Origin: Bacteroidota bacterium | GTDB taxonomy: Bacteria > Bacteroidota > Bacteroidia > Bacteroidales > JACABE01 | DNA length: 64,000 nt | Direction of reading: 5' to 3' | NCBI GenBank assembly: GCA_026391675.1 | Contig: JAPLDQ010000012.1 | Location: forward strand, 62,001-126,000 | In this document: in pieces, positions 2,311-55,368 of the stretch | How the letters are laid out: each line of letters opens with the position of its first letter | How positions within the stretch are numbered: the stretch's first letter is position 1 | Notes under the pieces: model-generated | Database searches by the model: none | Seen by the model: the letters and a program-made list of their open reading frames with translations, nothing else | What the model was told of the DNA's origin: nothing | Position numbers and translations under genes: made by a program

Positions 2311-2362
2311 TGGAAAGTGACAATTTAAATGTATTTTATTTATATTACGCTGAGTTTTCTTT

Positions 2363-2449
2363 TTGTCATTCCGAGCCTTAGCAAGGAATCTCAATGAAAT
2401 AAAAAATACATATTATATGAGATGCTTCACTCCGTTCAGCATGACAAAA
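2363..2449. repeat. REP-like inverted pair between regulator and kinase genes
   Basis: The left arm reads TTGTCATTCCGAGC then CAAGGAATCTC. The right arm, read on the other strand, is TTTGTCATGCTGAACGG then AAGCATCTC. The arms share the frame TGTCATnCnGA...AnGnATCTC and are separated by an AT-rich spacer. The arrangement resembles dispersed intergenic palindromes seen in Bacteroidota and other genomes. It could fold in mRNA as a cruciform-like hairpin between the two genes. Confidence 0.65.
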
Positions 2450-2462
2450 CAATAAATAGCAC

Positions 2463-2515
2463 AACAAACTTTATAACTTTACAAACTTTAAGAACTTTAT
2501 AAACTTGACAAACTC
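2463..2515 (+). repeat. Degenerate AACTTTA-type tandem repeat ahead of the kinase start
   Basis: Words AACTTTATAA, CTTTACAAA, AACTTTAAG, AACTTTATAA and ACTTGACAAA follow one another up to the ATG at 2518. No ordinary ribosome-binding site is visible between the repeat and the start. Confidence 0.6.
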
Positions 2516-2517
2516 AA

Positions 2518-3567: not shown

Positions 3568-3614
3568 GAGTTTAGACTGTTAGGCTGAGAATAGTGGAAA
3601 TTTTAATTTCTTGT

Positions 3615-3644
3615 CTTTTATTGGTAAAATAATTCGTAGTTTTG
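3615..3644 (+). promoter_or_regulatory. Promoter-like 30-base repeat, copy 1
   Basis: Reads CTTTTATTGG...AATTCGTAGTTTTG and ends in TAGTTTTG, a TAnnTTTG match. It agrees at 28 of 30 positions with a second copy at 4667-4696. It lies 86 bases before the start at 3730. Confidence 0.55.
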
Positions 3645-3729
3645 TTAAAGATTATAAGGATTATTCTATCACAAAGGCAAAATTTCATCATAATAGTAAA
3701 TATCTGAGAATCAAGTTTCCGCTACATTA

Positions 3730-4125
3730 ATGAAAAAAGCAATTTACATTTTGGTTCTAGCATTTTATGCTTTGGGTACTTTGTTTTTACCTTTGGGCGA
3801 TTTTTCTTTATTACAAGACTTACCTCAAATGTATCAGCATTGCAAAACAACAGAGGATAAGGATATGACAGCTATAGATTTCATTACCGACCATTTAATA
3901 AATATTGATAGTATTTTTGATAAACACGAAAATGGAGATGATCAAAAACCCCATATTCCGGTTCAATATCATTCACAGCAATTACAAACAATTTATTTAA
4001 TACAAGTTTTTGAAATTCCTGACGCTAATCCTATAGTATTAAATAATAAATTTCCTGATTATTCAGAAATAATTTATTTATCAGATTATATATTTAAAAT
4101 ATTCAGACCGCCTGTAATTGCTTGA
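3730..4125 (+). CDS. Small exported protein of unknown function, resembling metal-operon proteins
   Basis: The 131-residue product has an N-terminal hydrophobic segment (AIYILVLAFYALGTLFLPLG). After it come an acidic central part (DLPQMYQHC, FITDHLINIDSIFDKHE, QKPHIPVQYH) and the ending LSDYIFKIFRPPVIA. Short Bacteroidota proteins with this QKPH-P-Q and FRPP pattern are, from memory, often encoded beside heavy-metal efflux or TonB-receptor genes. No such gene is next to it here. A lone cysteine (C39) and several histidines could bind a metal, but that is speculation. The promoter-like repeat upstream supports expression as its own unit. Confidence 0.6.
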   Translation: MKKAIYILVLAFYALGTLFLPLGDFSLLQDLPQMYQHCKTTEDKDMTAIDFITDHLINIDSIFDKHENGDDQKPHIPVQYHSQQLQTIYLIQVFEIPDANPIVLNNKFPDYSEIIYLSDYIFKIFRPPVIA

Positions 4126-4188
4126 TTACTAAACAATCAATTTAAAGTGAAATTTTAAAATAATTAATGAAATTTAAATGAAAAAAAA

Positions 4189-4614
4189 ATGAAAAAAATA
4201 ATTTTCGTTGCTATGCTTATTTTATTAAACTTAGCAACAAGCTTTGCGCAAAGCAAAGCACCGGCTGCTGTAATATCAGCTTTTAAACAAAAATTCCCAA
4301 CAGCCACTAAAGTAAGCTGGGGAAAAGAAAATGCCAAAGAGTGGGAAGCAGAGTTTACATTAGATGGAAATAAAGTTTCTGCAAACTTTAACCTTGAAGG
4401 TGTTTGGCTGGAGACCGAAATGGAAATTCCTGTTTCAAAGTTACCAAAAGCTGTTGCTGATGCAATACAAAAGCAATACCCTAATTGGAAAATTACCGAA
4501 GCCAATAAAACCGAAACCGCTAAAAACGGATGGATTTACGAAGCAGATATTAAATCAGGTAAACAAAAGAAGGAAGTTGTTTTTAAAGAAGACGGAACAA
4601 GTGTTGTAAAGTAA
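4189..4614 (+). CDS. Secreted PepSY-like protein (DUF2874 type)
   Basis: This 141-residue protein starts with a clear signal peptide ending near SFAQSKA. Two similar halves follow, each with the pattern 'hydrophobic-helix, QKFPTATKVSWGKE / QKQYPNWKITEANK, then a charged beta-hairpin'. That two-repeat layout is typical of periplasmic PepSY-like (DUF2874) proteins of Bacteroidota, whose function is poorly known. The coding strand is very rich in AAA/GAA codons. A strong hairpin terminator follows 8 bases after the stop, so it probably forms a single-gene unit. Confidence 0.8.
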   Translation: MKKIIFVAMLILLNLATSFAQSKAPAAVISAFKQKFPTATKVSWGKENAKEWEAEFTLDGNKVSANFNLEGVWLETEMEIPVSKLPKAVADAIQKQYPNWKITEANKTETAKNGWIYEADIKSGKQKKEVVFKEDGTSVVK

Positions 4615-4621
4615 ATACCCA

Positions 4622-4656
4622 AAAAGGAGTCCTGAGATTAAGGGCTCCTTTTTTTT
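4622..4656 (+). terminator. Rho-independent terminator after the PepSY-like gene
   Basis: AAGGAGTCCT pairs with AGGGCTCCTT (one G-U pair) around an 8-base loop and runs into eight T residues. Confidence 0.85.
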
Positions 4657-4666
4657 GAATTCTATC

Positions 4667-4696
4667 CTTTTATTGATAAAATAATTCGTAGATTTG
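4667..4696 (+). promoter_or_regulatory. Promoter-like 30-base repeat, copy 2
   Basis: Reads CTTTTATTGA...AATTCGTAGATTTG and ends in TAGATTTG, a TAnnTTTG match 25 bases before the methyltransferase ATG. Only two positions differ from copy 1 at 3615-3644. Confidence 0.6.
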
Positions 4697-37363: not shown

Positions 37364-38866
37364 ATGAACAGTAAACTAAAGCTTAACCCAAATCCTCTGG
37401 TAAAATTTTTGGGCAAGCCCGCTTCCGAATTCACTAAAAAAGACCTGATCAGATTTATTGAAGAATGTAATATTGAGATGCTTAACTTACGCTATGTTGG
37501 TGGTGATGGGCGTTTAAAATGCCTGAACTTTGTCATCAACAGCTTAGACCATTTAGATACAGTATTGAGTTGTGGAGAAAGAGTTGACGGCTCAAGCTTA
37601 TTTTCCCATATTGAAGCAGGTTCCAGTGATTTATATGTTGTCCCGAGATATCGCACCGCTTTTTTAAATCCGTTTACCGAAATTCCAACCTTAGATATTT
37701 TATGTTCTTATTTTAATAAAGACGGCGAACCATTGGAAAGTTCACCTGAATATATTATGCAAAAAGCACATCAGGAATTGAAAAACAAAACGGGTTTCAA
37801 TTTTGAAGTGATGGGTGAACTTGAATTTTACTTTATCAGTCCTAAGGAAGATTTATTTCTGGCAGAAGATCAACGGGGCTATCATGAATCTTCACCATTT
37901 ACTAAATGGGAATTATTACGTACAGAAGCAATGCATGCAATTGCCATGGTTGGTGGAAATATTAAATACGGACATTCAGAAGTTGGCAACTTTACAGTCG
38001 GAGATACTATTTACGAACAAAACGAAATTGAATTCAGTCCTTCACCATTGGAAGAAGCTGCTGACCAGTTATTGATTGCAAAATGGATATTACGGACACT
38101 GGCTTATCAGTATGATGTAACGGTTACTTTTGCACCTAAAATTACTGTCGGTAAAGCCGGTAGTGGTATGCATATTCATACCCGTTTGATGAAAGATGGG
38201 AAAAATATCATGGTTGAAGATGGCAAATTGTCTGATATTGCACGAAAAGCTATTGCCGGTTATTTAACAATGGCACCTTCTTTAACAGCTTTTGGGAATA
38301 CAAATCCTGCATCGTATTTACGTCTGGTACCGCATCAGGAAGCTCCAACCAATATTTGCTGGGGTGACCGCAACCGTTCTGTTTTGGTGAGAGTTCCTCT
38401 GGGCTGGTCAGGGAAGAAAAATATGGCAAAAATTGCCAATCCTTTAGAAGAAGATGTTCCACATGATTTTTCACATAAACAAACCGTTGAATTCCGTTGT
38501 CCTGACGGATCAGCTGATGTTTACCTGTTACTTGCAGGTTTAACGGTTGCAGTTCGTCATGGTTTTGAAATGGCAAATGCCCTTGAATTTGCTAAAAAAA
38601 CTTATGTTGATATTAATATTTTCCATGAAGAATTTAAAGATATTACTTCACAATTGGAACATTTACCAGCTTCATGCTATGAATCTGCAATAAAACTTGA
38701 AGAACAACGTGAAATATACGAAAAATACGGTGTTTTTAGTAAAAGCATGATAGACGGAACGATTAAAAAGCTGAAAGCCTATAACGACGAGCAATTGCGA
38801 GAAGAAATTCATTGCAATAAAGAAAAAATAATGAAGTTGGTTCATACTTATTTTCATTGCGGATAA
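37364..38866 (+). CDS. glnA: Glutamine synthetase
   Basis: This 500-residue enzyme makes glutamine from glutamate and ammonia using ATP. Blocks include the beta-grasp domain (LRYVGGDGRLKCLNF), DGSSLFSHIEAGSSDLYVVP, GELEFYF with metal-binding glutamates, NEIEFSPSPLEEAADQ, GSGMHIHTRL, NRSVLVRVP and VEFRCPDGSADVYLLLAG. The C-terminal end lacks an obvious adenylylation-site tyrosine block of the enterobacterial type, which suggests another mode of control. It is a single-gene unit with a promoter and a terminator. Confidence 0.95.
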   Translation: MNSKLKLNPNPLVKFLGKPASEFTKKDLIRFIEECNIEMLNLRYVGGDGRLKCLNFVINSLDHLDTVLSCGERVDGSSLFSHIEAGSSDLYVVPRYRTAFLNPFTEIPTLDILCSYFNKDGEPLESSPEYIMQKAHQELKNKTGFNFEVMGELEFYFISPKEDLFLAEDQRGYHESSPFTKWELLRTEAMHAIAMVGGNIKYGHSEVGNFTVGDTIYEQNEIEFSPSPLEEAADQLLIAKWILRTLAYQYDVTVTFAPKITVGKAGSGMHIHTRLMKDGKNIMVEDGKLSDIARKAIAGYLTMAPSLTAFGNTNPASYLRLVPHQEAPTNICWGDRNRSVLVRVPLGWSGKKNMAKIANPLEEDVPHDFSHKQTVEFRCPDGSADVYLLLAGLTVAVRHGFEMANALEFAKKTYVDINIFHEEFKDITSQLEHLPASCYESAIKLEEQREIYEKYGVFSKSMIDGTIKKLKAYNDEQLREEIHCNKEKIMKLVHTYFHCG

Positions 38867-39063: not shown

Positions 39064-42000
39064 ATGAGAAAAATATATACCCTTTTTACATTTTTTGTTT
39101 TATTACTGTTAAATTTCACTGTGCTAAGGGCACAGGTAACAGTAAGTGGTTCAGCAGGAGGAAACGGTACTTATGGAACCCTGAAGCTAGCATTTGATGC
39201 TTTAAACCTCCAGACTACTCAGGCCGGGAACAATATAGTTATCCAAATTACAGCTAATACTGTAGAATCTGCTACTGCTGTTTTATATCAACCTTCAGTT
39301 AGTAGCTGGGCATCTTTAAAGATTTATCCAACTGTTGGAGGTTTATCAATAAGTGGTAATATTGCAGGTCCTATTATAGATTTAAATGGTGCAGATAAGG
39401 TTACTATAGATGGCAGAATCAGTGCTTCAGGAACTACAGCAGATTTAACGATTATAAATACCAGTACATCCAATACTTCAGGAACTTCAACTATCCGTTT
39501 AATTGAATCTGCTGAAAACAATATGGTGAAATATTGCAATATTAAAGGTTCAACCACTGACCCGACTGGTGGTGTAATTTACTTTGCAACATCTACTGCT
39601 GGTAATGGCAATGATAATGACACCATAAGCTATTGTAATATTTCAAGTACATCAAATGTATTAAGGTCAATAAATGCAATTTTTTCATTTGGATCTGCTT
39701 CTCATGATAATAGTGCTGATTTTATTAATAATAATAATATTTTTGATTTTTTTAACCCATCTATTACTTCAGCAGGGATTAATATTTCCGGTAATTCAAC
39801 GGCCTGGAATATTAATGGTAATAGTTTTTATGAAAGCACAACATTTACACCCAGTGCAGGAGTTGTTTACTATGCGATAAATATTAATAACGGCACTAAT
39901 GGAGATAACTTTAATATAACAAATAATTTTATTGGTGGAAATGCACCCTTGTGTGCCGGAACATTAACAAAATCAGCAAATAGTAATTTGTTTTATGGAA
40001 TGTATCTAAATTTAATAACAGCTACTGGAAATAATATTCAAGGTAATATAATCAAAAATATTAACTGGAATAACTCATCTAAGGCAGATTGGTATGCAAT
40101 GTTTATTAATTCCGGAAAAGTAGATATTGGGACACTTAACAAAAATATTATTGGGGATTCTGTAGGAACAGGCTCAATAACAGTAACAAATGCAATATCA
40201 AATGGATTGGTATATGGAATATACCACAAAGGGACTGGTACAATTCAAAATAATGATATTGGTTCTATCAATGCAGCCAATACTACCGCTGCAAATGCAA
40301 CTATGTTATATGGAATTTACTTATACTCTTTTGGGAATTTAAATGTTAATAATAATTTGATTGGAAGTTTAACAACTTCCGGCAGTTTTTCTACAAGCTC
40401 CACAGCTACTTCAAATGCTCAAATTCTTACCGGAATATTTAATAATGGAACCGGAAATATAACCATAAATAATAATACAATTGCAAATATTGCAAATGGA
40501 GCTACCGGAAGTTTTAACCATCTTACCCATGGTATAAACAATAACAATACTACATCTGCTTTTACAATTTCAAATAATACTATCAGGGATATAAAAATCA
40601 GCAATGCTAATGCTAGCACAGATCAAAATTCGTCAATTATTGGCATATTAGCATATTCACCCAGTGGAAGTCAAATAGTATCCGGAAACACAGTGTATAA
40701 TTTGACAAATACTAACATTTTGGCCAGCGGACAAAATATGATTGGTTTGTATATTAATTGTGGTACAGCTACACAGAACACTTTTTCAAATAACTTAATC
40801 AGTTCTTTCCTAAGTAATTCAGCATCCATCTTTTACGGTATAAAAATTCAAGCCGGAGCAAATTTACTTTCAAATAATATTATTTATATTGATGGGAATT
40901 CAGCATCAACCAATTACGGCTTATATGAAAATGGTGCAGCCGGAAATAATAACATACTGTATTTTAACACAGTTTATCTGGCAGGATCTCCTAATTCAGG
41001 TTCTGCAAATTCATTTGCTTTGTATAGTAATTCAAATTTAAACACAAGAAATTTCAGAAATAATATTTTCTTTAATGCACGTTCTAACAGTGGTTCAGCA
41101 AATGGTACTCATTATGCTGCTTTCTTTAATTATAACAATAATGCAAGCCTTACACTCAATTATAATGATTACTTCGCAAATGGAATCGGAGGAGTTTTGG
41201 GGTATTTTAATTTATCGCCTGTAACTAATCTTCCTATCGTAACCGGTAATGATGTCAATAGCTTAAACATAAATCCTAGTTTTATAAATGCAGGAGGAAC
41301 AAATGCTATTGATTATATGCCATTAGTCATTTTAACTGGTCAATCCGCTACAGGAATTACAACTGATTATTTCTCTGTAAACAGATTTATGCCAACAATG
41401 GGAGCTATTGAATCTTCTAATGTGGATGTATATTCAAGTAATGTTTATCAGTCAACCTATGCAACCTTAAAAGATGCATTTGCTGCCATTAACGCAGGAA
41501 CGCACCAAGGTGCTCTTACGCTTAAAATAAAAGGAAGTACCACAGAAACAGCCACAGCATTGTTAAATGCCAGTGGTGTTGGGTCCGCAAATTATACTTC
41601 TGTATATATTTATCCTACTGCAAGCGGAATTACAATAGGAGGAAGTCTTGCTGCACCAATAGTGGATTTAAACGGTACCGATCATGTATGCTTTGACGGC
41701 AGGGTAAATGCTACAGGAATTATTGCAGATTTAATAATTACAAATGCTGACATATCAACTGCGGCAAATAATTCTACTATAAGATTCAGAGAATCAGCTG
41801 AAAATAATAGTATAAAATATTGTAATGTAAAAGGTTCAAATAAAACAGCAAACAGTGGTATAATTTATTTTTCCACATCTGCTGCCGGTAATGGTAATGA
41901 TAATGATACCATCAATTTTTGTAATATTAGCAGCGAAACCAGCGGAAGAACATTAAATGCAATTTATGCTGAAGGTTCCAGTGGGTTTGTTAATAATAAT

Positions 42001-45000
42001 ATTGTTATAAGTGATAATAATATTTTTAATTATTTTAATCCTGCAATGAATTCTGCAGGTATCTATACATCTTCCTATAATTCAGGATGGATTATCAATA
42101 ATAATAGTTTTTTTGACACTTCTACTTTTTCACCAACTGCTACAGTCAATTATTATGGAATTAAAATTAATTCTGCAACCGGAAATGGAGGAAATTTCCT
42201 GGTATCAAATAATTATATTGGAGGGAATAGTGCTTTATGTAATGGTTTGCTGAATAAAGCGGCTACATCAAGTAATGCCTTTATTGGTATAGATGTTGCT
42301 GTTGGAAATACTGCAGCCAGCAGTATACAAGCTAATATTATTAAAAAAGTAAATTGGTTAAATAATGCAACGGCTGTTTCTAACTGGACTGGCATTAATA
42401 TTCCTTCTGGTTTAGTAACAGTTACAGGAAACCTTATAGGTTCTGTTAACGGTATTGATTCATTAATAGTTACAAATTCAACTTACACAACCGCACAACC
42501 ATTTATTATTGGAATAGCAAGTCAAAGTAGTGACGCTGTTACCATTCAGAACAGTACTATTGGTGCACTCCGCTCTGCCAACAACGATAATCCAAGCCCT
42601 ACAGGAATTTATGGCATATTTACTTCAGGAACCGGCACTTACAATATCAGTAATAACACAATAGGCAGTTTAACTACTTCTAACAGTATATATGCCAGTT
42701 CAACAAGTTCAGGCAATCAGCAGGATATATTTGGAATTTATTGTCTGAATTCAGGAACGCTTAATATTTCAGGCAACACCATTGCAAATTTAACAAATGC
42801 AACTTCATATCCTTCTGCAACCAACCCGGGACGTATAAAAGGAATTGCTCTGGTAAATGCAGGAACAGCAAATGTTTCTGCTAATACTGTAAGAGATCTG
42901 AATAACAATAGTCCATCCGGTCTTGCTGCTAATGATACCATTGCAGCAATAATTGGTATTCAGGTTAATAATTCATCTGCCGGATCAGGGAATAGATCTG
43001 TTTCAGCCAATTCGATTTATAATTTATCAAATACCAATGCAAGTATCGGTTCAAACGTAATCGGTTTTTACTGTGATGGAGACAATGTTACAACTAATAC
43101 ATTTGCCGGCAATTTTATTTACAATTTTTCAGGTAATTCATCCACAGTATTTTATGGAATCAGAAATAATAATGGAATAAATAAGATTTATAATAATATC
43201 ATAAATCTTGGCTCTAACAGTGTTAATAGCATTTATGGTATATGGGAAAACAGTCCTGTTAGTTCAAGTATCGATACGATTTATTTTAATACGGTTTATA
43301 TCGGAGGTACACCTACTACTTCAGCTGCATCATCCTATGCTTTATACAGTAATGCAATTTCCGGTACTTTTAACAAGAGTATTAAAAATAATATCTTTTA
43401 TAATGCCCGTTCCAATAGTGGTTCCGCATCAGGGAAACATTATGCTGCCTATTTTAACTATAACTCCGTTTCAAATCTGTCACTTAATTACAATGATTAT
43501 TATGCACCCGGTTCAGGTGGCTGGATCGGCCATTATAATAGTTCAGATATTGGAACTTTACCTGCTTTAATCTCAGCTATTGGTCAGGATGCCAATAGTT
43601 TAAATATAAACCCCAATTTAGTTAATCCGGGAAGTGCAAATCCCGGTGATTATCGTCCGACTGCTGCTTTATCTGGAATTAGTATAGTTTTAATACCAAC
43701 TGATTATTATTCAGTAACCAGATCTACAACTGCTCCAACAATGGGTGCTTTAGAAACATCCAATGTTGATGTTTATGTTTCAAATGTGTTTCAGTCGAGT
43801 TATGCAACCTTAAAACAAGCTTTTGATTTTATTAACTCCGGTGCTCATACGGGTATTTTAACCGTTAAAATTAAAGGAAATACTATTGAAACTGCACCAG
43901 CTGTGCTAAATGCAAGCGGTAGTGGCAGTGCCAATTACAGCAGTGTTACTGTAATTCCTGTTGGAATAAGAACCGTTACGGGAGCTATTACTGCCGGATC
44001 ACCTTTAATTGATCTGAACGGAGCTGATAATGTTACTATAAATGGTCTCAATAATGGAACAGACTCACTAATCCTGACCAATACCACAGTTTCATCTTCA
44101 GCCGGAACTTCAACTATTCGGTTTATTGCAGACGCAAGCAATGACACCATTATGAATTGCACCATACTTGGAGCCTGCAATCCAACCTCAGCCACAGCAG
44201 CAGGAATCATACTTTTCTCAACAGGAACTACTACCGGTAATGACAAAAATGTGATCAGCACTAATAGTATTGGGAATATTACTGGTTTTAATCCAACATC
44301 AGTCATAACTTCATCAGGAACATCCGGAGCAATTTCAAATGATTCTATTACTATTACCGGCAATAAAATTTACAACTGGTATGCTACTAACGGTGCTAAT
44401 GCAATTAATATTACCGCAAACAGTTCAGCATGGGATATCAACAATAATAAATTTTATCAGACTGCAGCCCAAAGTGGACTTATTTCAGGCAGTTATTTGA
44501 AATGTATTTATATAAATTCAGGAAGTGCCTATTCGATTAGTAATAATAATATAGGGTATGCCAATGCAAATTCAAGCGGTATGTTTACCAATACCGGCGG
44601 ACGCTTTACAGGAATAGATATAAATGTAGCTTCAAATCCTGTTAGTAATATACAGGGAAATACAATAAACAATATCAACTGGACTACTGCCAGTGGTGCT
44701 AATTCTCTGGGTGGAGCAATCTTTAACGGAATAATTGTTAATGGAGGTAAAGTTAATATAGGAAACACAACTTCCAATACTATTGGAAGTTCAACAGGTG
44801 TTGGTTCAAGTTCTTCCGGGATTTACATAACTTCCACAACTTCAAATGCTGCAATTGTTCCAATTTATGTAAATTCTGATGCATCATGCAATATTTCCAA
44901 TAATAATATTGGTGCTATTGCAACAGGAGGAACTGCTGCAATAGGTTATTATTTTTATGGTATAAGTATTGATGAAGGCGGAAATCATATAGTAAACCAG

Positions 45001-48000
45001 AATAATATCGGAAATTCAACATATGGCAGTGTTGCTATTGGTACACTTGGAACTACAACGGCTGCATGTTATTTATATGGTATAAATTCACTTGGAACCG
45101 GTGCTATTACAATTGGGAATACAACAGGTACAGGGAATATTATTCATAATCTTTGCAATAATGGTTTTGGTACCGGTTTAATTTATGCTATTTCAAATAG
45201 CGGAGCAATAACAGGTTTAAGCAAAATCAATTATAATGCTATTGATAGTCTGTTTTTCCCTACAACAGCATCCTCTTCAAATTGTTACCTTATTAATAAC
45301 ACAACAGCTGCTGCAACTGATTCTTTATATATTACAAATAATATTTTTGGCAGTAATGCAGCAAGTTTTACAGGGACTTCAGGTGGTTCAGGTATTTTTT
45401 ATGGTATATATCAAATTGGATCTCCATTTAAAACAGTAATCAGTAATAATGTTTTTAACAATATGAGTGTTAAAACATCCGGTACAATTGGTTTAATCTG
45501 GAATAATTATACAGCACCGGCTAATGGAATTAAAATTATTCAAAACAATTCAATAATTAATGGCTTTAACAGAATACTTGCTACAAATACTGCTAGTTTT
45601 TATTGTTATTATGATATATTAAATTCTCCATCTACCGCAAACATTACAATTTCAGGTAATAATTTTTCAAAAATCACTTCAAATACAACTGGTGTAAATA
45701 GTTTCTTCGGTATTTATAATACTTCATCCAACAATCCTTCTTTAAATGTATATAATAATATATTAGATTCCATCTCATTTAACGGAACATCCAACATTAA
45801 TCTTATTTACTTGAATGGATTTGGCGGTACTGCAGGCACTCCAAATTTAGTTTATGGAAACAGAGTTTCAAATTTCACAAGTAGTGCCAATGCTTTAACG
45901 ATATATGGAATTTATATAGGTCCTCAAAGTTTATATGTTAATATTTACAATGACAGTGTTCAGAATATTACACTTTCCGGTAACTCTACTTTATGTGGCA
46001 TTTATGGAGGTGGTACAACCAATTTGAATAAATTTTATAACAACAGCATTAATAACCTAAGCAATACTTCAAATGGTGTTATTCAAGGTATATTTATAAA
46101 TAGTGGAAATACTATGAATATATACCAAAATGCCATTAATTCTATCTCAAGTTTGGGAACTGTATATGGAATAATAATTAATGGAGGTACAACTATTAAT
46201 ATTTACCAGCATAAAACAATAGGAACAAAAAATTACAGTCTGTACGGTTTAACATCAGGAGGTGCGACTGCAGCTGCCAGGGGTATTACTGTAATTGCAG
46301 GTACTAATGTTAATATTTATAAAAATAATATTTACAATATCAGCAATACAAGTAGTGGAAGTTTATCAGGGTTGGTAAGTGGAATTATTTTAGGCGGAGG
46401 AATAAATGACAGTGTTTTCAATAATACTATTGGTGATTTAACAGCTCCGTCAGCAAACGTCTCAGATGCTATTACAGCTATTGCAGTAAATTCTAATACA
46501 GCGTTGTCAAACTATTATCTGTTTTATAATACAATAAACCTGAATGCTATATCATCAGGAGCAGTTTTTGGGACTACAGGAGTATCTCATGTTACCAGTG
46601 CAACTGCTACTACTGCAAATCTCACTTTAAGAAACAATATTATTGTTAACACTTCAACACCTTCTGGAGGGGGTATTTCAGCAGCTTATCGCAGATCAAG
46701 TGCTTTATTGGCAAATTATAATGCTACTTCAAATAATAATCTGTTTTATTCAGGAACTCCAGGTGCAACAAGACCAATAATGTTTGATGGAACAACAGCA
46801 TTTCAGACTTTAGCCAACTATAAATTTGCTGTGGGAACCCGTGATGCAGCATCTGTTACAGAAAATCCTAACTGGGCGAGCACAACAGGTTCTGCAGCAA
46901 AATATCTCCACATAAATAATACTATTCTTACCGCAATTGATAATGGTGCTGTAAACATTCCAACGATAACAGATGATATTGATAATGATATCCGTCAGGG
47001 AAATGCCGGATATACAGGATTAGGTACTTCACCGGATATGGGTGCTGATGAATTTGATTTAATATGCGGAGGAATGCCTGGTGCATCTACAATTCTTAAA
47101 GCAATACCAGTTATATGTGCCGGTTCTACCGATTCATTATGGCTTAGCACCATATATTTACTTCCGGGAATTTCATATCAATGGGCATCTTCTCCAAATT
47201 ACGGAGGTCCATATACCAATCTGGATACAAATGCAAATCAACCAACTGGAGTTCTTACTGTCACAACTTATTTTAGATGTATAATCAAATGTACAAATAC
47301 AGGTGATTCTATTATTACACCTATTGATTCAATAATTGTATCTCCTACTTCACATGGTGGTTTAGCCACTGCTGTTCCATCAATGGTGTGTTTTAGTACA
47401 TCAACAACGATAACTTTATCAGCATATACAGGAAATATTCAATGGCAATCTTCTCCTGATAGCCTTGTATGGACTAATATAACAGGTCAATCATCACCTA
47501 CATTGTCAACTGGAAATCTTACAACTTATTTTTATTATCGTGCTATTGTAACCAGTAGTCCTTGTTCGCCCGACACGTCTACTGTTGCCAAAGTTACAAT
47601 TGACCCATCAACTGTTGCCAGTATTTCTTATTCAGGTACACCTTATTGTAATTCACTTACAACGCCACAAGCAGTAACACTTACCGGTGCTACAGGAGGA
47701 ACATATTCAGCAGCTGCCGGTCTTAGTATAAATGCTACAACTGGTGCAATTACCCCAAGTACAAGTACTTCAGGCACTTTTACTGTAACATATACTATTG
47801 CTGCTGCAGGTATTTGTAATACGGTCACGACAACAACATCAGTAACAATAGTAACATCTCCTGCTGCAACTATAAGTTATGCAGGAACACCTTACTGTAA
47901 AACATTAATAACAGCTCAAAATATAACTTTAACAGGAACAGCCGGAGGAACATATACTGTATCGCCTGCCGGTCTTACAATAAATGCTGCAACGGGAGCT

Positions 48001-51000
48001 GTAACACCAAGTACAAGTACATCTGGTACATATACTGTCACTTATACTATTGCTGCTGCAGGAGCATGTCCTACTGTCACAACACAAACATCAGTTACTA
48101 TTAATGCATTACCTACAGCAAGCATTTCATATTCAGGAACGCCTTATTGTAACTCAATTACAACGCCTCAATCTGTTACACTTACCGGTGCTGCCGGAGG
48201 AACGTTCACTTCAACTACTGGTCTTAGTATAAATGCAGTTAACGGAGATATTACTCCAAGCACAAGTACAGCAGGAACTTACACTGTTACTTATATTATT
48301 GCTGCTGCAGGCGGATGTGCAACTGTCACAACAACCTCTTCTGTTACTATAACAGCATTACCTGCAGCTACTATAAGCTATGCAGGATCACCTTACTGTA
48401 AAACATTAATTACGGCTCAAAGTGTAACATTAACAGGCTCTGCAGGAGGAACATATATAGCATCACCTGCAGGTCTTACAATAAATGCTGCTACAGGAGC
48501 TGTAATTCCGAGTACAAGTACGGCAGGGACATATACGGTTACCTATACCATAGCTGCTGCAGGTGGTTGCCAGACTGTTACTACAACAACAACTGTTACT
48601 ATTAATGCTCTTCCTACAGCCAGTATTTCATATGCAGGTACTCCTTATTGTAATTCACTTACGACTGCTCAGTCTGTCACACTTACCGGTGCTGCCGGAG
48701 GAACTTTCACTTCAACTACCGGTCTGAGTATAAATACTGCTAACGGAGATATAACACCAAGTACAAGTACAGCAGGAACATATACAGTTACTTATATTAT
48801 TGCTGCTGCTGGAGGTTGCAGTACTGTTACAACTACTGCTTCAGTTACTATAACAGCATTACCTGCAGCTACAATTAACTATGCAGGATCACCTTACTGT
48901 AAAACATTAATAACAGCTCAAAGTGTAACTTTAACAGGCTCTGCAGGAGGAACATATACAGCTTTACCTGCAGGCCTTACTATTAATGCTGCAACGGGAA
49001 GCGTAACTCCAAGTACAAGTACGGCAGGGACATATACTGTAACTTATACAATTGCTGCTGCAGGTGGTTGCCAGACAGTAACTACTACAACAACAGTTAC
49101 TGTTAATGCTTTACCGGTTGCAAGTATTTCTTATGCAGGAACTCCATTCTGTCAAACCCTTATAACTGCTCAATCAGTTACGATTACTGGTGCTGGTGGC
49201 GGAACTTTCACCTCTACTGCAGGACTTAGCATTAATACTTCAACTGGTGCAATTACACCAAATACAAGTACAGCAGGAACTTATACGGTTACCTACATTA
49301 TTGCTGCGGCAGGAGGATGTGCTACAGTTACAACTACTGCTTCAGTTACAATAACAGCATTACCTGCAGCTACTATAAATTACGCAGGATCTCCTTATTG
49401 TAAAACATTAACAACAGCACAAAGTGTAACATTAACAGGCTCTGCTGGAGGAACATATTCAGCATTACCTGCAGGTCTGACGATAAACGCTGCAACGGGA
49501 GGCGTAACACCGAGTACAAGTACAGCAGGGACTTATACTGTTACCTATACCATTGCTGCTGCAGGTGGTTGCCAGACAGTAACTACAACAACAACTGTTA
49601 CTATCAATGCTTTACCGGTGGCAAGTATTTCTTATGCTGGTTCTCCATTCTGTCAAACCCTTACAACTGCTCAATCAGTTACAATTACTGGTGCCAATGG
49701 CGGAACTTTCACTTCAACTACTGGATTGAGCATAAATACTGCTAACGGAGATATTACCCCAAACACAAGTACAGCAGGAACCTATACCGTTACCTATATT
49801 ATTGCTGCTGCAGGTGGATGTGCTACTGTTACAACTACTGCTTCAGTTACAATTACAGCATTACCATCAGCAACAATAAGCTATGCAGGATCACCTTACT
49901 GCAAAACATTAACGACAGCTCAAAGTGTAACACTTACCGGAACTACAGGAGGAACATATTCAGCATTACCTGCAGGTCTGACGATAAACGCTGCGACGGG
50001 AGGCGTAACTCCAAGTACAAGTACGGCAGGAACATATACTGTTACCTATACCATTGCTGCTACTGGCGGATGTACTACAGTTACTACAACATCAACAGTT
50101 ACTATCAATGCTTTACCGGTGGCAAGTATTTCTTATGCAGGCTCTCCATTCTGTCAAACCCTTACAACTGCTCAATCAGTTACAATTACTGGTGCAAGTG
50201 GTGGAACTTTCACCTCTACTGCAGGACTTAGTATTAATACTTCAACAGGTACAATTACACCAAATACAAGTACAGCCGGAACTTACACTGTTACATACGT
50301 TATTGCTGCTGCAGGTGGATGTGCTACAGTTACAACAACTGCTTCAGTTACAATTACAACATTACCATCAGCAACAATAAGCTATGCAGGTTCACCTTAC
50401 TGTAAAACATTAACAACGGCTCAAAGTGTAACACTTACCGGAACTACAGGAGGAGCATATTCAGCATCACCTGCAGGTCTTACTATAAATGTTGCAACAG
50501 GAGGAGTAACTCCAAGTACAAGTACGGCAGGAACTTATACAGTTACCTATACCATTGCTGCTACTGGCGGATGTACTACAGTTACTACAACATCAACAGT
50601 TACTATCAATGCTTTACCGGTGGCAAGTATTTCATATGCCGGAACTCCATTCTGCCAAACCCTTACAACTGCTCAATCAGTAACTATTACAGGTGCCAGT
50701 GGAGGAACTTTCACATCAACAACAGGACTAAGTATCAATACTTCAACAGGTGCAATAACACCAAACACAAGTACAGCAGGAACATACACGGTTACCTATA
50801 TTATTGCTGCTGCAGGTGGATGTGCTACAGTTACAACAACTACTTCAGTAACAATTACAGCATTACCATCAGCAACAATAAGCTATGCAGGATCACCTTA
50901 CTGTAAAACATTAACAACAGCTCAAAGTGTAACACTTACCGGAACTACAGGAGGAGCATATTCAGCATTACCTGCAGGACTTACTATAAACGCTGCAACC

Positions 51001-54000
51001 GGAGGAGTAACTCCAAGTACAAGTACGGCAGGAACTTATACAGTTACCTATACCATTGCTGCTACTGGCGGATGTGCTACAGTAACTACAACAACAACAG
51101 TTACTATCAATGCTTTACCGGTGGCAAGTATTTCTTATGCCGGAACACCATTCTGTCAAACCCTTACTACTGCTCAATCAGTTACAATTACTGGTGCAAG
51201 TGGTGGAACTTTTACTTCAACTGCTGGTTTAAGTATTAATACATCAACTGGTGCTATAACACCTAACACAAGTACAGCCGGAACTTACACGGTTACATAC
51301 GTTATTGCTGCTGCCGGTGGTTGTGCCACAGTTACTACAACAACTTCAATTACAATTACAGCATTACCTATTGCAAGCTTTACTTATTCTTCAGATACTT
51401 ATTGCAGTAATGTTGCAAATCCTTTACCAAGCTATATTAATGGTGGAAGTGCTGGTACATATTCTGCTTCACCTGTTGGATTAAGTTTTGTTAGTACGAC
51501 AACAGGTCAGATTAATTTATCTGCCAGTACAGCAGGTACATATACAATTACTAATACTAAAAGTGCTTTAAATGGATGTCCTGCTGTAACAGCTTTTGAT
51601 ACGATAACTATTTTTGCCGCACCTACTGCAACGATTACATATACTGCTAACCCATTCTGTAAAACTGTTACAACTTCTCAGGCAGTTACAAGAACTGGAA
51701 CAGCAGGAGGAATATATTCAGCTCTACCGGCTGGACTAACACTTGATTCACTTACCGGTGCTGTAACACCAAGTACCAGCACAGCAGGAACTTATACTGT
51801 TACTTATACAATTGCAGCTGCCGGAGGATGTAATACTGTTACAATAACAACATCAGTAACTATAACTACCGCACCAACCGCAACAATTAGCTATGCCGCC
51901 ACTCCTTATTGTCAATCGCTAACAACTGCTCAAAGTGTAACATTTACAGGTAACACAGGCGGAACATATTCTGCAGTACCTGCAAGTCTTTCAATCATTG
52001 CAGCAACCGGGGCAATAACACCGAATACAAGTTCAGCAGGGACTTATACTGTTACTTATACCATTGCAGCAGCTGGTGGATGTGCAACTGTAACAGCCAC
52101 AACAACAGTTACTATAACAGCTTCACCAACTGCAACGATATTATATGCCGGTTCACCTTATTGTAAAAGCCTTACAACTTCTCAGGCAGTTACAAGAACG
52201 GGTATTGCTGGAGGAAAATACACAGCATTACCAGTCGGACTAACACTTGATTCACTTACCGGTGCTGTAATTCCAAGCACCAGTACAGCCGGAACATATA
52301 CAGTAACTTATACCATTGCAGCAGCCGGAGGTTGTAATACCGCTACATTTACAACTTCAGTAACAATTACAGCAGTTCCTATTGCCAGCTATACCTATTC
52401 TGCAAATATATACTGCAGTAATGGAACAAATCCTTTACCAAGTTATTATGGCGGTGGTAGTGCAGGAACATTCTCTGCTACTCCCGTTGGATTAAGTTTT
52501 GTAAGTACTACTACAGGCCAGATAAATCTATCGGGTAGTACCGGGGGGACATATATAATTACAAATACTAAAACTGCAAGTGGATGTCCTTCAGCAACAG
52601 CTGCGGATACCATAACAATTACAACAGCACCGTCTGCTACAATTACTTATGCAGGTTCACCGTTCTGCAGAACGGTAACAACTGCACAAGCAGTAACCCG
52701 TACCGGAACTGCAGGAGGAACTTATTCATTTACACCACTAGGATTATCAATTAATACTTCAACCGGTGCTATAACACCAAGTACCAGTACTGCAGGGTCT
52801 TACTCTGTTACTTATACTATGGCTGCAACAGGTGGTTGTAATACAATTACTACATCTACAACCGTAACTATTACAAATGCACCAACTGCTTCCATTAATT
52901 ATACAACAGCACCATATTGTAATTCTGACACCAATTCTAAGGCAGTAATACGTATAGGTACTGCCGGCGGAACTTATACTGCAGCACCTGCAGGATTAAC
53001 TTTAAACTCATCAACCGGTGCTATAAAACCCAGTACAAGTACACCCGGAACTTATACTGTTTCCTATACTATTGCAGCAGCCGGAGGTTGTGCAACGGTA
53101 ACAGCTACAAAATCTGTAACTATAACAGCTTTACCAACTGCGTCAATTTCTTATGCTGGAAATCCATTCTGTACATCAGTAACCACTTCACAGAGTGTAA
53201 CATTGGTAGGAAACACAAGTGGTACTTATTCTGCATTACCTGTGGGTCTTACTTTAAATACCAATACAGGTGCAATAATACCAAGTACAAGTACTCCAGG
53301 AAATTATCATGTTACTTATACTATTGTTGCGGCAGGTGGTTGCCCAAAAGTAACTGATTCTGTTCAGGTAACTATAACATTACAACCAATACTTAAAGAT
53401 TCAAGCAATGCTCCTATCTGCGAACAAGAAAGTTTACTACTATATTCAACATTTATTAATGGAGCAACATATCATTGGAGCGGACCAAATGGCTGGGGTT
53501 CTCCACAACAAAATCCTGTTGTATCTCCATTTGCTTCAGTTTTATTATCCGGACTTTATACTGTGAATGTTACCGGAATTCCCGGTGGTTGCCCTGATAT
53601 GAGTGCAAGTATTCCAATTGTTGTAAATCCAAAACCAGTTGCTAATTTCTCTCATACACCTGTTTATCCTGAAATGGGTGAAGATATTTATCTGACATAT
53701 ACAGGAACAACAGCAAATCTTTGGAATTGGTATCTCAATGGCATCTTGTTTTCAAATGTTGAAAAACCCGTTTTCAGATTAGATAATTATGGAAACTCTA
53801 TGATTTACTTATATGTACAAAATACATTTGGTTGTAAAGACACTGTTTCTAAATTTATTTATGTTAAAGAACTTAGTAAAATCTGGATGCCAAATGCATT
53901 TACACCTGATGGAGATGGATATAACGATATATATATGGTTTATGCCGTTAATCCTGTTAAAAAATTCAGTATGAGAATATTTAACAGATGGGGTCAGATG

Positions 54001-54153
54001 GTGTTTGAAACGGAAAATATTACTGAAGGTTGGGACGGAAGATATAAAGGTGAAGAATGTCCTATCGGAACTTACGTGGTAGTTATTAACTACACACAAA
54101 GTCAGATAGATCAGTCATTCGAATTAAATCAATCTGTTACACTCATACGTTAA
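39064..54153 (+). CDS. Giant (5029-residue) T9SS type B surface protein with beta-helix and repeat array
   Basis: One uninterrupted frame. A signal peptide (cleavage near LRAQ) is followed by three related right-handed beta-helix modules, starting near residues 20, 786 and 1567. Each opens with a YATLKxAFxxIN/IDLNGADxVTIDG pattern and continues with strands of the NNTI/NNNIG type. The helix ends near DMGADEFDL (2660). Ig-like segments lead to 23 repeats of about 84 residues (2851-4775). Then come an Ig-like and a PKD-like domain, and a type B sorting domain (WMPNAFTPDGDGYNDIY ... SVTLIR), the gliding-motility-associated kind. Likely role: adhesin or surface stalk. It is threonine, serine, alanine and glycine rich with few lysines in the array. 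Confidence 0.95.
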   Translation: MRKIYTLFTFFVLLLLNFTVLRAQVTVSGSAGGNGTYGTLKLAFDALNLQTTQAGNNIVIQITANTVESATAVLYQPSVSSWASLKIYPTVGGLSISGNIAGPIIDLNGADKVTIDGRISASGTTADLTIINTSTSNTSGTSTIRLIESAENNMVKYCNIKGSTTDPTGGVIYFATSTAGNGNDNDTISYCNISSTSNVLRSINAIFSFGSASHDNSADFINNNNIFDFFNPSITSAGINISGNSTAWNINGNSFYESTTFTPSAGVVYYAININNGTNGDNFNITNNFIGGNAPLCAGTLTKSANSNLFYGMYLNLITATGNNIQGNIIKNINWNNSSKADWYAMFINSGKVDIGTLNKNIIGDSVGTGSITVTNAISNGLVYGIYHKGTGTIQNNDIGSINAANTTAANATMLYGIYLYSFGNLNVNNNLIGSLTTSGSFSTSSTATSNAQILTGIFNNGTGNITINNNTIANIANGATGSFNHLTHGINNNNTTSAFTISNNTIRDIKISNANASTDQNSSIIGILAYSPSGSQIVSGNTVYNLTNTNILASGQNMIGLYINCGTATQNTFSNNLISSFLSNSASIFYGIKIQAGANLLSNNIIYIDGNSASTNYGLYENGAAGNNNILYFNTVYLAGSPNSGSANSFALYSNSNLNTRNFRNNIFFNARSNSGSANGTHYAAFFNYNNNASLTLNYNDYFANGIGGVLGYFNLSPVTNLPIVTGNDVNSLNINPSFINAGGTNAIDYMPLVILTGQSATGITTDYFSVNRFMPTMGAIESSNVDVYSSNVYQSTYATLKDAFAAINAGTHQGALTLKIKGSTTETATALLNASGVGSANYTSVYIYPTASGITIGGSLAAPIVDLNGTDHVCFDGRVNATGIIADLIITNADISTAANNSTIRFRESAENNSIKYCNVKGSNKTANSGIIYFSTSAAGNGNDNDTINFCNISSETSGRTLNAIYAEGSSGFVNNNIVISDNNIFNYFNPAMNSAGIYTSSYNSGWIINNNSFFDTSTFSPTATVNYYGIKINSATGNGGNFLVSNNYIGGNSALCNGLLNKAATSSNAFIGIDVAVGNTAASSIQANIIKKVNWLNNATAVSNWTGINIPSGLVTVTGNLIGSVNGIDSLIVTNSTYTTAQPFIIGIASQSSDAVTIQNSTIGALRSANNDNPSPTGIYGIFTSGTGTYNISNNTIGSLTTSNSIYASSTSSGNQQDIFGIYCLNSGTLNISGNTIANLTNATSYPSATNPGRIKGIALVNAGTANVSANTVRDLNNNSPSGLAANDTIAAIIGIQVNNSSAGSGNRSVSANSIYNLSNTNASIGSNVIGFYCDGDNVTTNTFAGNFIYNFSGNSSTVFYGIRNNNGINKIYNNIINLGSNSVNSIYGIWENSPVSSSIDTIYFNTVYIGGTPTTSAASSYALYSNAISGTFNKSIKNNIFYNARSNSGSASGKHYAAYFNYNSVSNLSLNYNDYYAPGSGGWIGHYNSSDIGTLPALISAIGQDANSLNINPNLVNPGSANPGDYRPTAALSGISIVLIPTDYYSVTRSTTAPTMGALETSNVDVYVSNVFQSSYATLKQAFDFINSGAHTGILTVKIKGNTIETAPAVLNASGSGSANYSSVTVIPVGIRTVTGAITAGSPLIDLNGADNVTINGLNNGTDSLILTNTTVSSSAGTSTIRFIADASNDTIMNCTILGACNPTSATAAGIILFSTGTTTGNDKNVISTNSIGNITGFNPTSVITSSGTSGAISNDSITITGNKIYNWYATNGANAINITANSSAWDINNNKFYQTAAQSGLISGSYLKCIYINSGSAYSISNNNIGYANANSSGMFTNTGGRFTGIDINVASNPVSNIQGNTINNINWTTASGANSLGGAIFNGIIVNGGKVNIGNTTSNTIGSSTGVGSSSSGIYITSTTSNAAIVPIYVNSDASCNISNNNIGAIATGGTAAIGYYFYGISIDEGGNHIVNQNNIGNSTYGSVAIGTLGTTTAACYLYGINSLGTGAITIGNTTGTGNIIHNLCNNGFGTGLIYAISNSGAITGLSKINYNAIDSLFFPTTASSSNCYLINNTTAAATDSLYITNNIFGSNAASFTGTSGGSGIFYGIYQIGSPFKTVISNNVFNNMSVKTSGTIGLIWNNYTAPANGIKIIQNNSIINGFNRILATNTASFYCYYDILNSPSTANITISGNNFSKITSNTTGVNSFFGIYNTSSNNPSLNVYNNILDSISFNGTSNINLIYLNGFGGTAGTPNLVYGNRVSNFTSSANALTIYGIYIGPQSLYVNIYNDSVQNITLSGNSTLCGIYGGGTTNLNKFYNNSINNLSNTSNGVIQGIFINSGNTMNIYQNAINSISSLGTVYGIIINGGTTINIYQHKTIGTKNYSLYGLTSGGATAAARGITVIAGTNVNIYKNNIYNISNTSSGSLSGLVSGIILGGGINDSVFNNTIGDLTAPSANVSDAITAIAVNSNTALSNYYLFYNTINLNAISSGAVFGTTGVSHVTSATATTANLTLRNNIIVNTSTPSGGGISAAYRRSSALLANYNATSNNNLFYSGTPGATRPIMFDGTTAFQTLANYKFAVGTRDAASVTENPNWASTTGSAAKYLHINNTILTAIDNGAVNIPTITDDIDNDIRQGNAGYTGLGTSPDMGADEFDLICGGMPGASTILKAIPVICAGSTDSLWLSTIYLLPGISYQWASSPNYGGPYTNLDTNANQPTGVLTVTTYFRCIIKCTNTGDSIITPIDSIIVSPTSHGGLATAVPSMVCFSTSTTITLSAYTGNIQWQSSPDSLVWTNITGQSSPTLSTGNLTTYFYYRAIVTSSPCSPDTSTVAKVTIDPSTVASISYSGTPYCNSLTTPQAVTLTGATGGTYSAAAGLSINATTGAITPSTSTSGTFTVTYTIAAAGICNTVTTTTSVTIVTSPAATISYAGTPYCKTLITAQNITLTGTAGGTYTVSPAGLTINAATGAVTPSTSTSGTYTVTYTIAAAGACPTVTTQTSVTINALPTASISYSGTPYCNSITTPQSVTLTGAAGGTFTSTTGLSINAVNGDITPSTSTAGTYTVTYIIAAAGGCATVTTTSSVTITALPAATISYAGSPYCKTLITAQSVTLTGSAGGTYIASPAGLTINAATGAVIPSTSTAGTYTVTYTIAAAGGCQTVTTTTTVTINALPTASISYAGTPYCNSLTTAQSVTLTGAAGGTFTSTTGLSINTANGDITPSTSTAGTYTVTYIIAAAGGCSTVTTTASVTITALPAATINYAGSPYCKTLITAQSVTLTGSAGGTYTALPAGLTINAATGSVTPSTSTAGTYTVTYTIAAAGGCQTVTTTTTVTVNALPVASISYAGTPFCQTLITAQSVTITGAGGGTFTSTAGLSINTSTGAITPNTSTAGTYTVTYIIAAAGGCATVTTTASVTITALPAATINYAGSPYCKTLTTAQSVTLTGSAGGTYSALPAGLTINAATGGVTPSTSTAGTYTVTYTIAAAGGCQTVTTTTTVTINALPVASISYAGSPFCQTLTTAQSVTITGANGGTFTSTTGLSINTANGDITPNTSTAGTYTVTYIIAAAGGCATVTTTASVTITALPSATISYAGSPYCKTLTTAQSVTLTGTTGGTYSALPAGLTINAATGGVTPSTSTAGTYTVTYTIAATGGCTTVTTTSTVTINALPVASISYAGSPFCQTLTTAQSVTITGASGGTFTSTAGLSINTSTGTITPNTSTAGTYTVTYVIAAAGGCATVTTTASVTITTLPSATISYAGSPYCKTLTTAQSVTLTGTTGGAYSASPAGLTINVATGGVTPSTSTAGTYTVTYTIAATGGCTTVTTTSTVTINALPVASISYAGTPFCQTLTTAQSVTITGASGGTFTSTTGLSINTSTGAITPNTSTAGTYTVTYIIAAAGGCATVTTTTSVTITALPSATISYAGSPYCKTLTTAQSVTLTGTTGGAYSALPAGLTINAATGGVTPSTSTAGTYTVTYTIAATGGCATVTTTTTVTINALPVASISYAGTPFCQTLTTAQSVTITGASGGTFTSTAGLSINTSTGAITPNTSTAGTYTVTYVIAAAGGCATVTTTTSITITALPIASFTYSSDTYCSNVANPLPSYINGGSAGTYSASPVGLSFVSTTTGQINLSASTAGTYTITNTKSALNGCPAVTAFDTITIFAAPTATITYTANPFCKTVTTSQAVTRTGTAGGIYSALPAGLTLDSLTGAVTPSTSTAGTYTVTYTIAAAGGCNTVTITTSVTITTAPTATISYAATPYCQSLTTAQSVTFTGNTGGTYSAVPASLSIIAATGAITPNTSSAGTYTVTYTIAAAGGCATVTATTTVTITASPTATILYAGSPYCKSLTTSQAVTRTGIAGGKYTALPVGLTLDSLTGAVIPSTSTAGTYTVTYTIAAAGGCNTATFTTSVTITAVPIASYTYSANIYCSNGTNPLPSYYGGGSAGTFSATPVGLSFVSTTTGQINLSGSTGGTYIITNTKTASGCPSATAADTITITTAPSATITYAGSPFCRTVTTAQAVTRTGTAGGTYSFTPLGLSINTSTGAITPSTSTAGSYSVTYTMAATGGCNTITTSTTVTITNAPTASINYTTAPYCNSDTNSKAVIRIGTAGGTYTAAPAGLTLNSSTGAIKPSTSTPGTYTVSYTIAAAGGCATVTATKSVTITALPTASISYAGNPFCTSVTTSQSVTLVGNTSGTYSALPVGLTLNTNTGAIIPSTSTPGNYHVTYTIVAAGGCPKVTDSVQVTITLQPILKDSSNAPICEQESLLLYSTFINGATYHWSGPNGWGSPQQNPVVSPFASVLLSGLYTVNVTGIPGGCPDMSASIPIVVNPKPVANFSHTPVYPEMGEDIYLTYTGTTANLWNWYLNGILFSNVEKPVFRLDNYGNSMIYLYVQNTFGCKDTVSKFIYVKELSKIWMPNAFTPDGDGYNDIYMVYAVNPVKKFSMRIFNRWGQMVFETENITEGWDGRYKGEECPIGTYVVVINYTQSQIDQSFELNQSVTLIR
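47614..53388 (+). repeat. 23-unit tandem repeat array, about 250 bases per unit
   Basis: Units begin with [AV]xISYAGxPxC and end with TVTITALP or TVTINALP. Units 2-15 alternate strictly between type A (PYCKTL, GLTINAATG, TIAA) and type B (PFCQTL or PYCNS, GLSIN[TA], IIAAAGGC), giving a higher-order period of about 500 bases. Units 16 and 20 are a divergent type C (YCSN...NPLPSY...FVSTTTGQINLS). The last units are more diverged. Confidence 0.93.
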
Positions 54154-54255: not shown

Positions 54256-55368
54256 ATGGAATTACAAACTATTATTCAAAAAATAAATATAAGTGCTGAA
54301 TTAAAAAACATTGCTATTAAAATATTTGAAAACAAACGTATAAGTATTGACGAATGTGTTGTTCTTTATAAAAATGCTGATCTTAGCTTAGTGGGAATGC
54401 TTGCCAATCAAATAAGGGAGAATAAAAATGGAAACAACACCTATTTTAATAAAAACCTTCATATAGAACCTACCAATATATGCATACATAATTGTAAGTT
54501 TTGTTCATATTCTAAAAAAATTGGTGGGGATGGATGGGAATCTACAGTTGACGAGATGCTTGATACCATTAATAAGGCTGATGATGCTATTACAGAAGTT
54601 CATATTGTAGGGGGTGTTCACCCGCATCGTGATATTCATTATTACGGAAATCTTATCATGCAAATAAAACTGCTTAGACCTAAACTTCATGTTAAAGCAT
54701 TTACAGCAGTTGAAATAGACTTTATGATTAAAAAAGCCGGACTAAGCTTAAATGAAGGGGTCCTGCTATTAAAAGAATATGGTCTGGATTCAATACCCGG
54801 TGGTGGTGCTGAAATCTTTGATGAAGAATTGCGGGCAGAAATTTGTCCTTCAAAAACATCCTCCGAACAATGGTTAGCTATTCATGAAGCATTACATCAG
54901 GTTGGTATTCCAAGTAATGCTACAATTTTATATGGTCATATCGAAACATACCGTCATCGTGCTGAACATATGGAGCGTTTAAGATTACTACAAGACAGGA
55001 CGAATGGGTTTAATGCCTTTATCCCTTTGAAATTTAAGCATAAGAACAATACTATGTCAGAAATCAAAGAAGTTTCTGTAATTGAAGACCTGAAGAACTA
55101 TGCTATTTCAAGAATCTTCCTCGATAATTTCCCGCACATCAAAAGCTACTGGCCAATGGTTGGAAAACAATTGGCTCAATTATCCCTATCCTTTGGTGTT
55201 GATGATTTTGATGGTACTATAAACGATTCAACTAAAATTTATTCTTTAGCAGGATCTGAAGAGCAAAACCCATCCATGACGACTGAAGAAATGGAAGAAT
55301 TAATTACTGCAGTCGGAAGAATAGCTGTTGAAAGGGATTCCGTGTATAATCATGTAAAATCAAATTAA
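54256..55368 (+). CDS. mqnE: Aminofutalosine synthase MqnE (radical SAM)
   Basis: This 370-residue enzyme belongs to the futalosine route of menaquinone synthesis. It joins the enolpyruvyl-benzoate product of MqnA to SAM-derived adenosine. The radical-SAM cluster motif is CIHNCKFC (CxxxCxxC). IPGGGAEIFDEELR and the ending NAFIPLKFKHKN fit MqnE rather than MqnC. LYGHIETYRHRAEHMERLR is also typical. No other mqn gene lies in the window. The gene starts a short plus-strand run with recX. Confidence 0.93.
   Translation: MELQTIIQKINISAELKNIAIKIFENKRISIDECVVLYKNADLSLVGMLANQIRENKNGNNTYFNKNLHIEPTNICIHNCKFCSYSKKIGGDGWESTVDEMLDTINKADDAITEVHIVGGVHPHRDIHYYGNLIMQIKLLRPKLHVKAFTAVEIDFMIKKAGLSLNEGVLLLKEYGLDSIPGGGAEIFDEELRAEICPSKTSSEQWLAIHEALHQVGIPSNATILYGHIETYRHRAEHMERLRLLQDRTNGFNAFIPLKFKHKNNTMSEIKEVSVIEDLKNYAISRIFLDNFPHIKSYWPMVGKQLAQLSLSFGVDDFDGTINDSTKIYSLAGSEEQNPSMTTEEMEELITAVGRIAVERDSVYNHVKSN

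Follow-up and report, generated by a model that had tools for sequence, protein, structure and literature searches.

The window analyzed here, the whole 64,000-nucleotide (nt) stretch at C40:62001-126000 of a 4.04-Mb Bacteroidota genome in 48 contigs, encodes a giant protein of 5029 aa (39064–54153, plus strand) in a single uninterrupted open frame, with a predicted location at the cell surface. It carries 23 consecutive immunoglobulin (Ig)-like units of 83–85 aa each at 47599–53370, of which units 2–15 strictly alternate between two sequence types, A and B. An alternating repeat array had been placed at 47614–53388 of this protein by the first-pass annotation, within 20 bases of the limits found here, and both the array and the alternation of units 2–15 were confirmed. 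We propose, with a probability of about 0.78, that block duplication and same-type exchange in an Ig-like stalk produced the alternation, which would be a by-product of array growth rather than a sequence rule required by the stalk.

All features of this gene lie on the plus strand. Unit 1 (47599–47847; 83 aa) was B-like by length and tree position, with an intermediate sequence. The alternating block (units 2–15; 47848–51354) comprised seven A+B pairs, each exactly 501 bp long, forming seven rows in exact register. Even-numbered units were of type A (84 aa) and odd-numbered units of type B (83 aa), the latter being one residue shorter owing to a gap at a fixed site. Comparison of the seven A with the seven B units revealed 13 alignment columns with fixed differences, one of them within the missing codon, and nine additional columns in which A and B units had no common state. 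Neighboring A and B units were 65–73% identical in amino acids (mean 70%), and units within a type 87–88%. The closest A pair (units 12 and 14) had 95.6% nt identity and the closest B pair (units 7 and 11) 91.6%, so that the earlier description of central same-type units as “almost identical” was overstated. The motifs proposed for the two types held in most units rather than in all: PFCQTL was present in units 7, 9, 11, 13 and 15 and replaced by PYCNS in units 3 and 5; the A motif GLTINAATG occurred in six of the seven A units; the B motif GLSINTSTG occurred in units 7, 11, 13 and 15, not in the remaining B units, and also in unit 21; and IIAA, likewise assigned to B, read YIIAA in units 3, 5, 7, 9 and 13 and YVIAA in units 11 and 15.

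No A/B alternation was observed in units 16–23. Unit 16 (51355–51609) is of a divergent type, X, with 79% nt identity to unit 20 (52366–52617), also of type X; between them lie units 17–19 (51610–52365), of which 17 and 19 are 79% identical in nt. Units 16–21 (51355–52869) thus show a second, weaker order, with X at 16 and 20 and 17 resembling 19. Units 21–23 (52618–53370) are diverged. The array is followed by a single Ig/PKD-like domain (53377–53643) that matches the stalk domains of grappling hook protein A (GhpA), and by a C-terminal type B sorting domain (TIGR04131, CHU_C; 53887–54105) of the type IX secretion system (T9SS).

The mean proportion of synonymous differences (pS) was 0.352 between A units, 0.462 between B units and 0.625 between A and B units, giving Jukes–Cantor distances (dS) of approximately 0.50, 0.79 and 1.4, respectively, the last close to saturation. 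This comparison of A-A with A-B divergence had been named beforehand as one that could refute the alternation, and the two types were separated by it. The odd/even split ranked first of all 3432 possible 7:7 splits by synonymous difference. Mean pS increased over even lags from 0.34 (lag 2) to 0.53 (lag 12) and was flat over odd lags (0.59–0.66). Both types lost similarity with position (Mantel r 0.61, p 0.004, and r 0.64, p 0.006), and such decay with distance inside each type is expected from repeated local duplication.

If all events had involved whole pairs, A and B units would be expected to have the same history. The A and B distance matrices agreed only partially (Mantel r = 0.57 with p = 0.009 in one phase and r = 0.38 with p = 0.12 in the other), which indicates that smaller same-type exchanges followed. 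The nt differences between neighboring rows were 49, 28, 27, 37, 16 and 11 for A and 39, 57, 33, 32, 27 and 33 for B. A units 10, 12 and 14 were 94–96% alike and B units 11, 13 and 15 were 87–89% alike, and unit 7 was nearer to unit 11 than to unit 9. The proposal of the first-pass annotation that the copying unit is a pair of about 500 bases therefore stands in the main, given the lower pS at even lags and the 501-bp register, although the A/B heterogeneity indicates that a whole pair was not always copied. Its suggestion that exchange is perhaps ongoing found no support: every unit of the array differs from every other, with a same-type pS of at least 0.083, so nothing shows exchange continuing today, unlike in Flavobacterium paronense. 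In that species, three 17-unit near-copies of one array (L092, L093 and L097), all with a higher-order period of 2, have identical units among them, and a single 29-kb contig carries two of the three, oriented oppositely.

An assembler could have produced the length or order of the array, since the genome is in 48 contigs of unstated read type, and another array of the same domain family in this genome (L011, G000:C12:56000-57469) is truncated by a contig end. Exact repeats in the array are at most 92 nt long, and reads of at least 100 nt can place every unit; no exact repeat of at least 95 nt was found in the array or the window. All units are distinct, the array lies inside its contig with intact flanks, and the decay of similarity among the alternating rows is not expected from misassembly. 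An assembly artefact is accordingly very improbable.

The giant gene lies between a gene for a glutamine synthetase domain protein (37364–38866) and one for an aminofutalosine synthase-like radical SAM protein (MqnE-like; 54256–55368), both on the plus strand, which served as synteny anchors. In a second genome of the genus (G001), the same two neighbors flank a gene for a 2913-aa protein with nine units, compared with 23 in the window. Its last 1016 residues align with residues 4013–5029 of the window protein at 61% identity, and its units 7–9 are colinear with window units 21–23. The nine-unit array showed no alternation (68% nt identity at both lag 1 and lag 2), and it falls short of the window array by 14 units, as many as the alternating block contains; the block looks lineage-specific. 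Synonymous difference between the window and G001 was 0.68 and 0.73 in the two neighbor genes, and the highest same-type pS in the window array (0.66) lies below both values; this fits block growth after the two lineages split, although exchange can lower same-type values too. In a third genome (G003; L168, G003:C27:27509-27675), the flanking genes are 167 bp apart and the giant gene is absent there, so the whole 15-kb gene was gained or lost within the genus. Two further genomes (G002 and G004) were uninformative, their flanking genes being on separate contigs, with no array on the stretches fetched.

The genome of the window also contains a paralogous array (L009, G000:C25:661-4401, minus strand) with several unit types in irregular order, neighboring units up to 94% identical in nt and no period at p < 0.01. 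A TAA codon interrupts it, leaving frames of 1290 and 522 aa and indicating a broken gene or an assembly error. An origin of the B type from this paralog was considered and rejected: the best match, its unit 7, had 71–76% aa identity to B units, but the tree does not join them.

To place the alternation among related arrays, we scanned 99 loci and the window (L013 was left out) for arrays of at least six units; 75 named loci had been found by searches with the window's own units, and the sample is therefore biased towards similar arrays. Sixty arrays were obtained, of which 58 were kept after removal of L086 and L089 as repeats of L056 and L055; since L093 and L097 are near-copies of L092, 56 are distinct. 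A significant higher-order period of 2 or 3 (p < 0.01) was found in 11 of the 58 arrays (9 of the 56 distinct). Period 2 was found in the window (p = 0.0002 over periods 2–6 against shuffled order), the three Flavobacterium paronense near-copies, F. hiemivividum, a Kordia metagenome-assembled genome (MAG; L118) and a Bacteroidetes MAG (L100), and period 3 in L099, L106 and two arrays of L096. Five further arrays (L087, L124, L114, L101 and L091) had p values between 0.01 and 0.05, and 47 of the 58, including the syntenic gene of G001 and the C25 paralog, had no significant period at 0.01. Alternation is therefore not unique to the window stalk, and periods 2 and 3 recur in related arrays, mostly with array-private unit types.

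In a tree of the units, based on 84 columns only and with unsettled bootstrap values, the window A units formed one clade (98/96) and the window B units another (99/95), both private to the window array, and the units of L118 and L100 likewise formed their own clades, which indicates that period 2 arose more than once. Conservation of the A and B types across period-2 arrays was rejected on the same placement. The period-3 arrays (L096, L099 and L106) have a unit type in common, and their order may thus be older; type X of window units 16 and 20 is this same type.

Both cysteines were present in all 23 units, spaced 56 residues apart in the B-length units of 1–15, 57 in the A and most later units and 58 in unit 16, in agreement with the earlier observation of two fixed cysteines about 55 residues apart. 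Among 573 surveyed units, 558 had both, 15 had one and none had neither, which makes the cysteine pair a strong feature of the family. The two cysteines are probably joined by a disulfide bond inside each domain. Unit A14 scored 25.4 bits against the putative Ig domain He_PIG (PF05345), above the 24-bit cut-off, whereas B13 scored 18.1 bits, below it; the array-bearing half of the protein scored 95 bits. The window units differ from He_PIG in having two conserved cysteines each. A two-unit structure model, from an alignment of 100 rows (96 of 110 locus pairs, chosen from 444 candidates, and four window pairs), had a predicted local distance difference test (pLDDT) score of 97.1 and a predicted template modeling (pTM) score of 0.82; a three-unit model from 21 overlapping window rows had a pLDDT of 37.1. 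Foldseek and VIA-align searches with the two-unit model matched the general Ig-like fold only, with a best whole-pair query TM score of approximately 0.6. In VIA-align, LigA had Z 9.7 and a root-mean-square deviation (rmsd) of 6.0, and a GhpA fragment (Z 7.8, rmsd 3.5 across 147 residues) was level with many others.

The sorting domain exceeded its cut-offs (TIGR04131, 57.3 bits against 35; PF13585, 70.1 against 27). The genome encodes the T9SS translocon SprA/Sov (TIGR04189, 2697.7 bits, cut-off 200; C25:26854-33861), and 31 of 33 genome-wide sorting domain matches were above cut-off. The giant protein is thus a putative T9SS type B cargo. Its N-terminal half (39064–45246) is a threefold tandem of Asn-rich cassettes: cassette 1 (residues 1–812; 39064–41499), for which no Pfam, NCBIfam or Protein Data Bank (PDB) match was found; cassette 2 (residues 818–1593; 41515–43842, C40:103515-105842), 48% identical to cassette 1; and a partial cassette 3 (residues 1599–2061; 43858–45246, C40:105858-107246), 38% identical to cassette 1. 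One self-comparison of the N-terminal part returned a trivial match only, and the cassettes rest on a separate comparison. Residues 1–2312 matched no Pfam or NCBIfam family, and residues 1–2700 matched no chain among PDB sequences, GhpA included, at E up to 0.1. Judged by eye only, cassette 1 appears beta-helix-like.

GhpA of Aureispira sp. CCB-QB1 (PDB 9flp and others), a 5898-aa chain with about 42 homologous Ig-like stalk domains, was the closest homologue with solved structures among the matches listed. The window tail (52618–54150) matched it at E 9.4e-133, a match that extended to the C-terminal part (GhpA 5703–5893, independent E-value 9e-7), and the tail domain alone at E 1.3e-180. The match of the alternating units was weaker (E 1.8e-49, with a large composition correction), and in a search with the two-unit profile A2 GhpA was not among the matches listed. 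When a one-domain query was used, the high-scoring domains of GhpA (PDB 9flp, residues ~1654–4672) were mostly about 249 residues apart, and the scores of its 42 stalk domains had a lag-3 autocorrelation of 0.78, which none of 10000 shuffles attained at lags of 2–7. Match spacing in a search with a longer query had also suggested a 3-domain period; this reading was rejected, since that query is three domains long. The two proteins thus share homologous stalk domains, a C-terminal part and a higher-order stalk period, which is 3 in GhpA and 2 in the window. The N-terminal region of the window protein has no match in GhpA, and for this reason we do not call it a grappling hook.

The GhpA period brings in the possibility that the alternation is structural, with A and B faces alternating along a multi-chain stalk and a period (2 here, 3 in GhpA) that fits fiber packing. 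GhpA is reported, in the available part of PMC13319060, to assemble as a heptamer, and period 3 was significant (p < 0.01) in four other arrays. Against this stand the variation of the period among related arrays, the 47 of 58 without a significant one at 0.01 and the unalternating syntenic gene; we regard a structural origin as quite unlikely. In a broader version, the period in multi-chain T9SS stalks would encode the structural repeat of the fiber, so that stalks with periods of 2 and 3 would differ in architecture and the window protein would be a single chain of such a fiber; this is speculative and appears doubtful. GhpA is the sole solved case among such stalks.

Block duplication with same-type exchange would proceed as follows. 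The array would form the stalk of a giant protein that the T9SS exports to the cell surface, with one Ig-like domain per unit and, within each domain, two conserved cysteines that are probably bonded to each other. Adjacent A and B units would have diverged first; misaligned recombination between same-type units, 501 bp or a multiple of it apart, would then have duplicated A+B blocks, and later exchange or conversion, often below pair size, may have partly homogenized same-type units. Under neutral unequal crossover, simulated arrays acquired a significant higher-order period in 14 of 120 runs when no homology rule applied, and in 25 and 29 of 120 when one did (12–24% overall). The 9 of 56 found in the survey is close to these frequencies; the criterion was p < 0.01 with a score of at least 0.05, and the 11 survey arrays counted had scores of at least 0.053. 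The simulation also gave periods of 4 to 6, none of which the survey showed at p < 0.01.

Several points weigh against this account. The simulation speaks to sufficiency only, with parameters chosen by the analyst, and no recombination event was observed. Units A12 and A14 differ at 11 of 252 sites and B13 and B15 at 33 of 249, so copying of whole pairs alone fails as a model and smaller exchanges must be invoked. The heterogeneity of A and B differences between neighboring rows (chi-square p = 0.002 for the A-B pairing and 0.044 for the B-A pairing) is only indicative, because the compared rows are non-independent. The A-B synonymous difference is near saturation, which makes the age of the A/B split unreadable, and the contrast with the G001 gene could stem from loss of pairs there instead of gain in the window.

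The lower identity of adjacent A and B units (65–73%, mean 70%) compared with units of one type (87–88%) might also reflect selection that keeps neighbors different, in which identical adjacent domains would co-misfold and only even-step copies would survive. Such a rule is stated in the available part of the Periscope paper (PMC8201768), and Bjorklund et al. 2006 (PMC1553488), as far as their text was available, discuss the idea and concede that it possibly favors multi-domain duplication. However, 70% is well above the under-50% identity that the same part of PMC8201768 gives as typical of adjacent domains. In the same family, neighbors reach 94% nt identity in the C25 paralog, and mean lag-1 nt identity is 0.89 in L102 (19 units) and 0.87 in L105 (30 units), neither with a period, so neighbors need not differ. 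The proportion of nonsynonymous differences (pN) in the window array is 0.07 within and 0.19 between types, in both cases well below pS, and gives no sign of selection for difference; moreover, the neutral simulation suffices. Selection on neighbors is therefore an unlikely cause.

The window array, as a product of block duplication, is a clear example of an already known growth mode of repeat proteins. In the part of Bjorklund et al. (PMC1553488) available, arrays grow by several domains at once with similarity peaks at block multiples, the two-domain unit is the commonest overall block of domain-repeat growth, and block duplication is preferred over aggregation as the main cause. That work covered 24 proteomes, in which repeats were far commoner in eukaryotes; the present case concerns bacterial T9SS stalks. 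Periscope proteins, as described in the part of PMC8201768 available, resemble the window protein in being surface stalks of tandem folded domains whose length recombination could change, and differ in their highly similar neighbors and in length variation reported between strains. The high adjacent-domain identity that defines them is not found in the window (65–73% aa), and each species here is represented by one genome. Among the papers listed by a literature search, with most subscription journals outside its reach, none dealt with alternation in T9SS stalks. Within one domain family there are arrays without a period, period-2 and period-3 arrays, a syntenic gene that does not alternate and a solved period-3 stalk. 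Together they constitute a natural experiment that bears on whether block duplication in repeat proteins arises neutrally, as a by-product of recombination, or is structurally necessary, which the available part of Bjorklund et al. (PMC1553488) leaves open.

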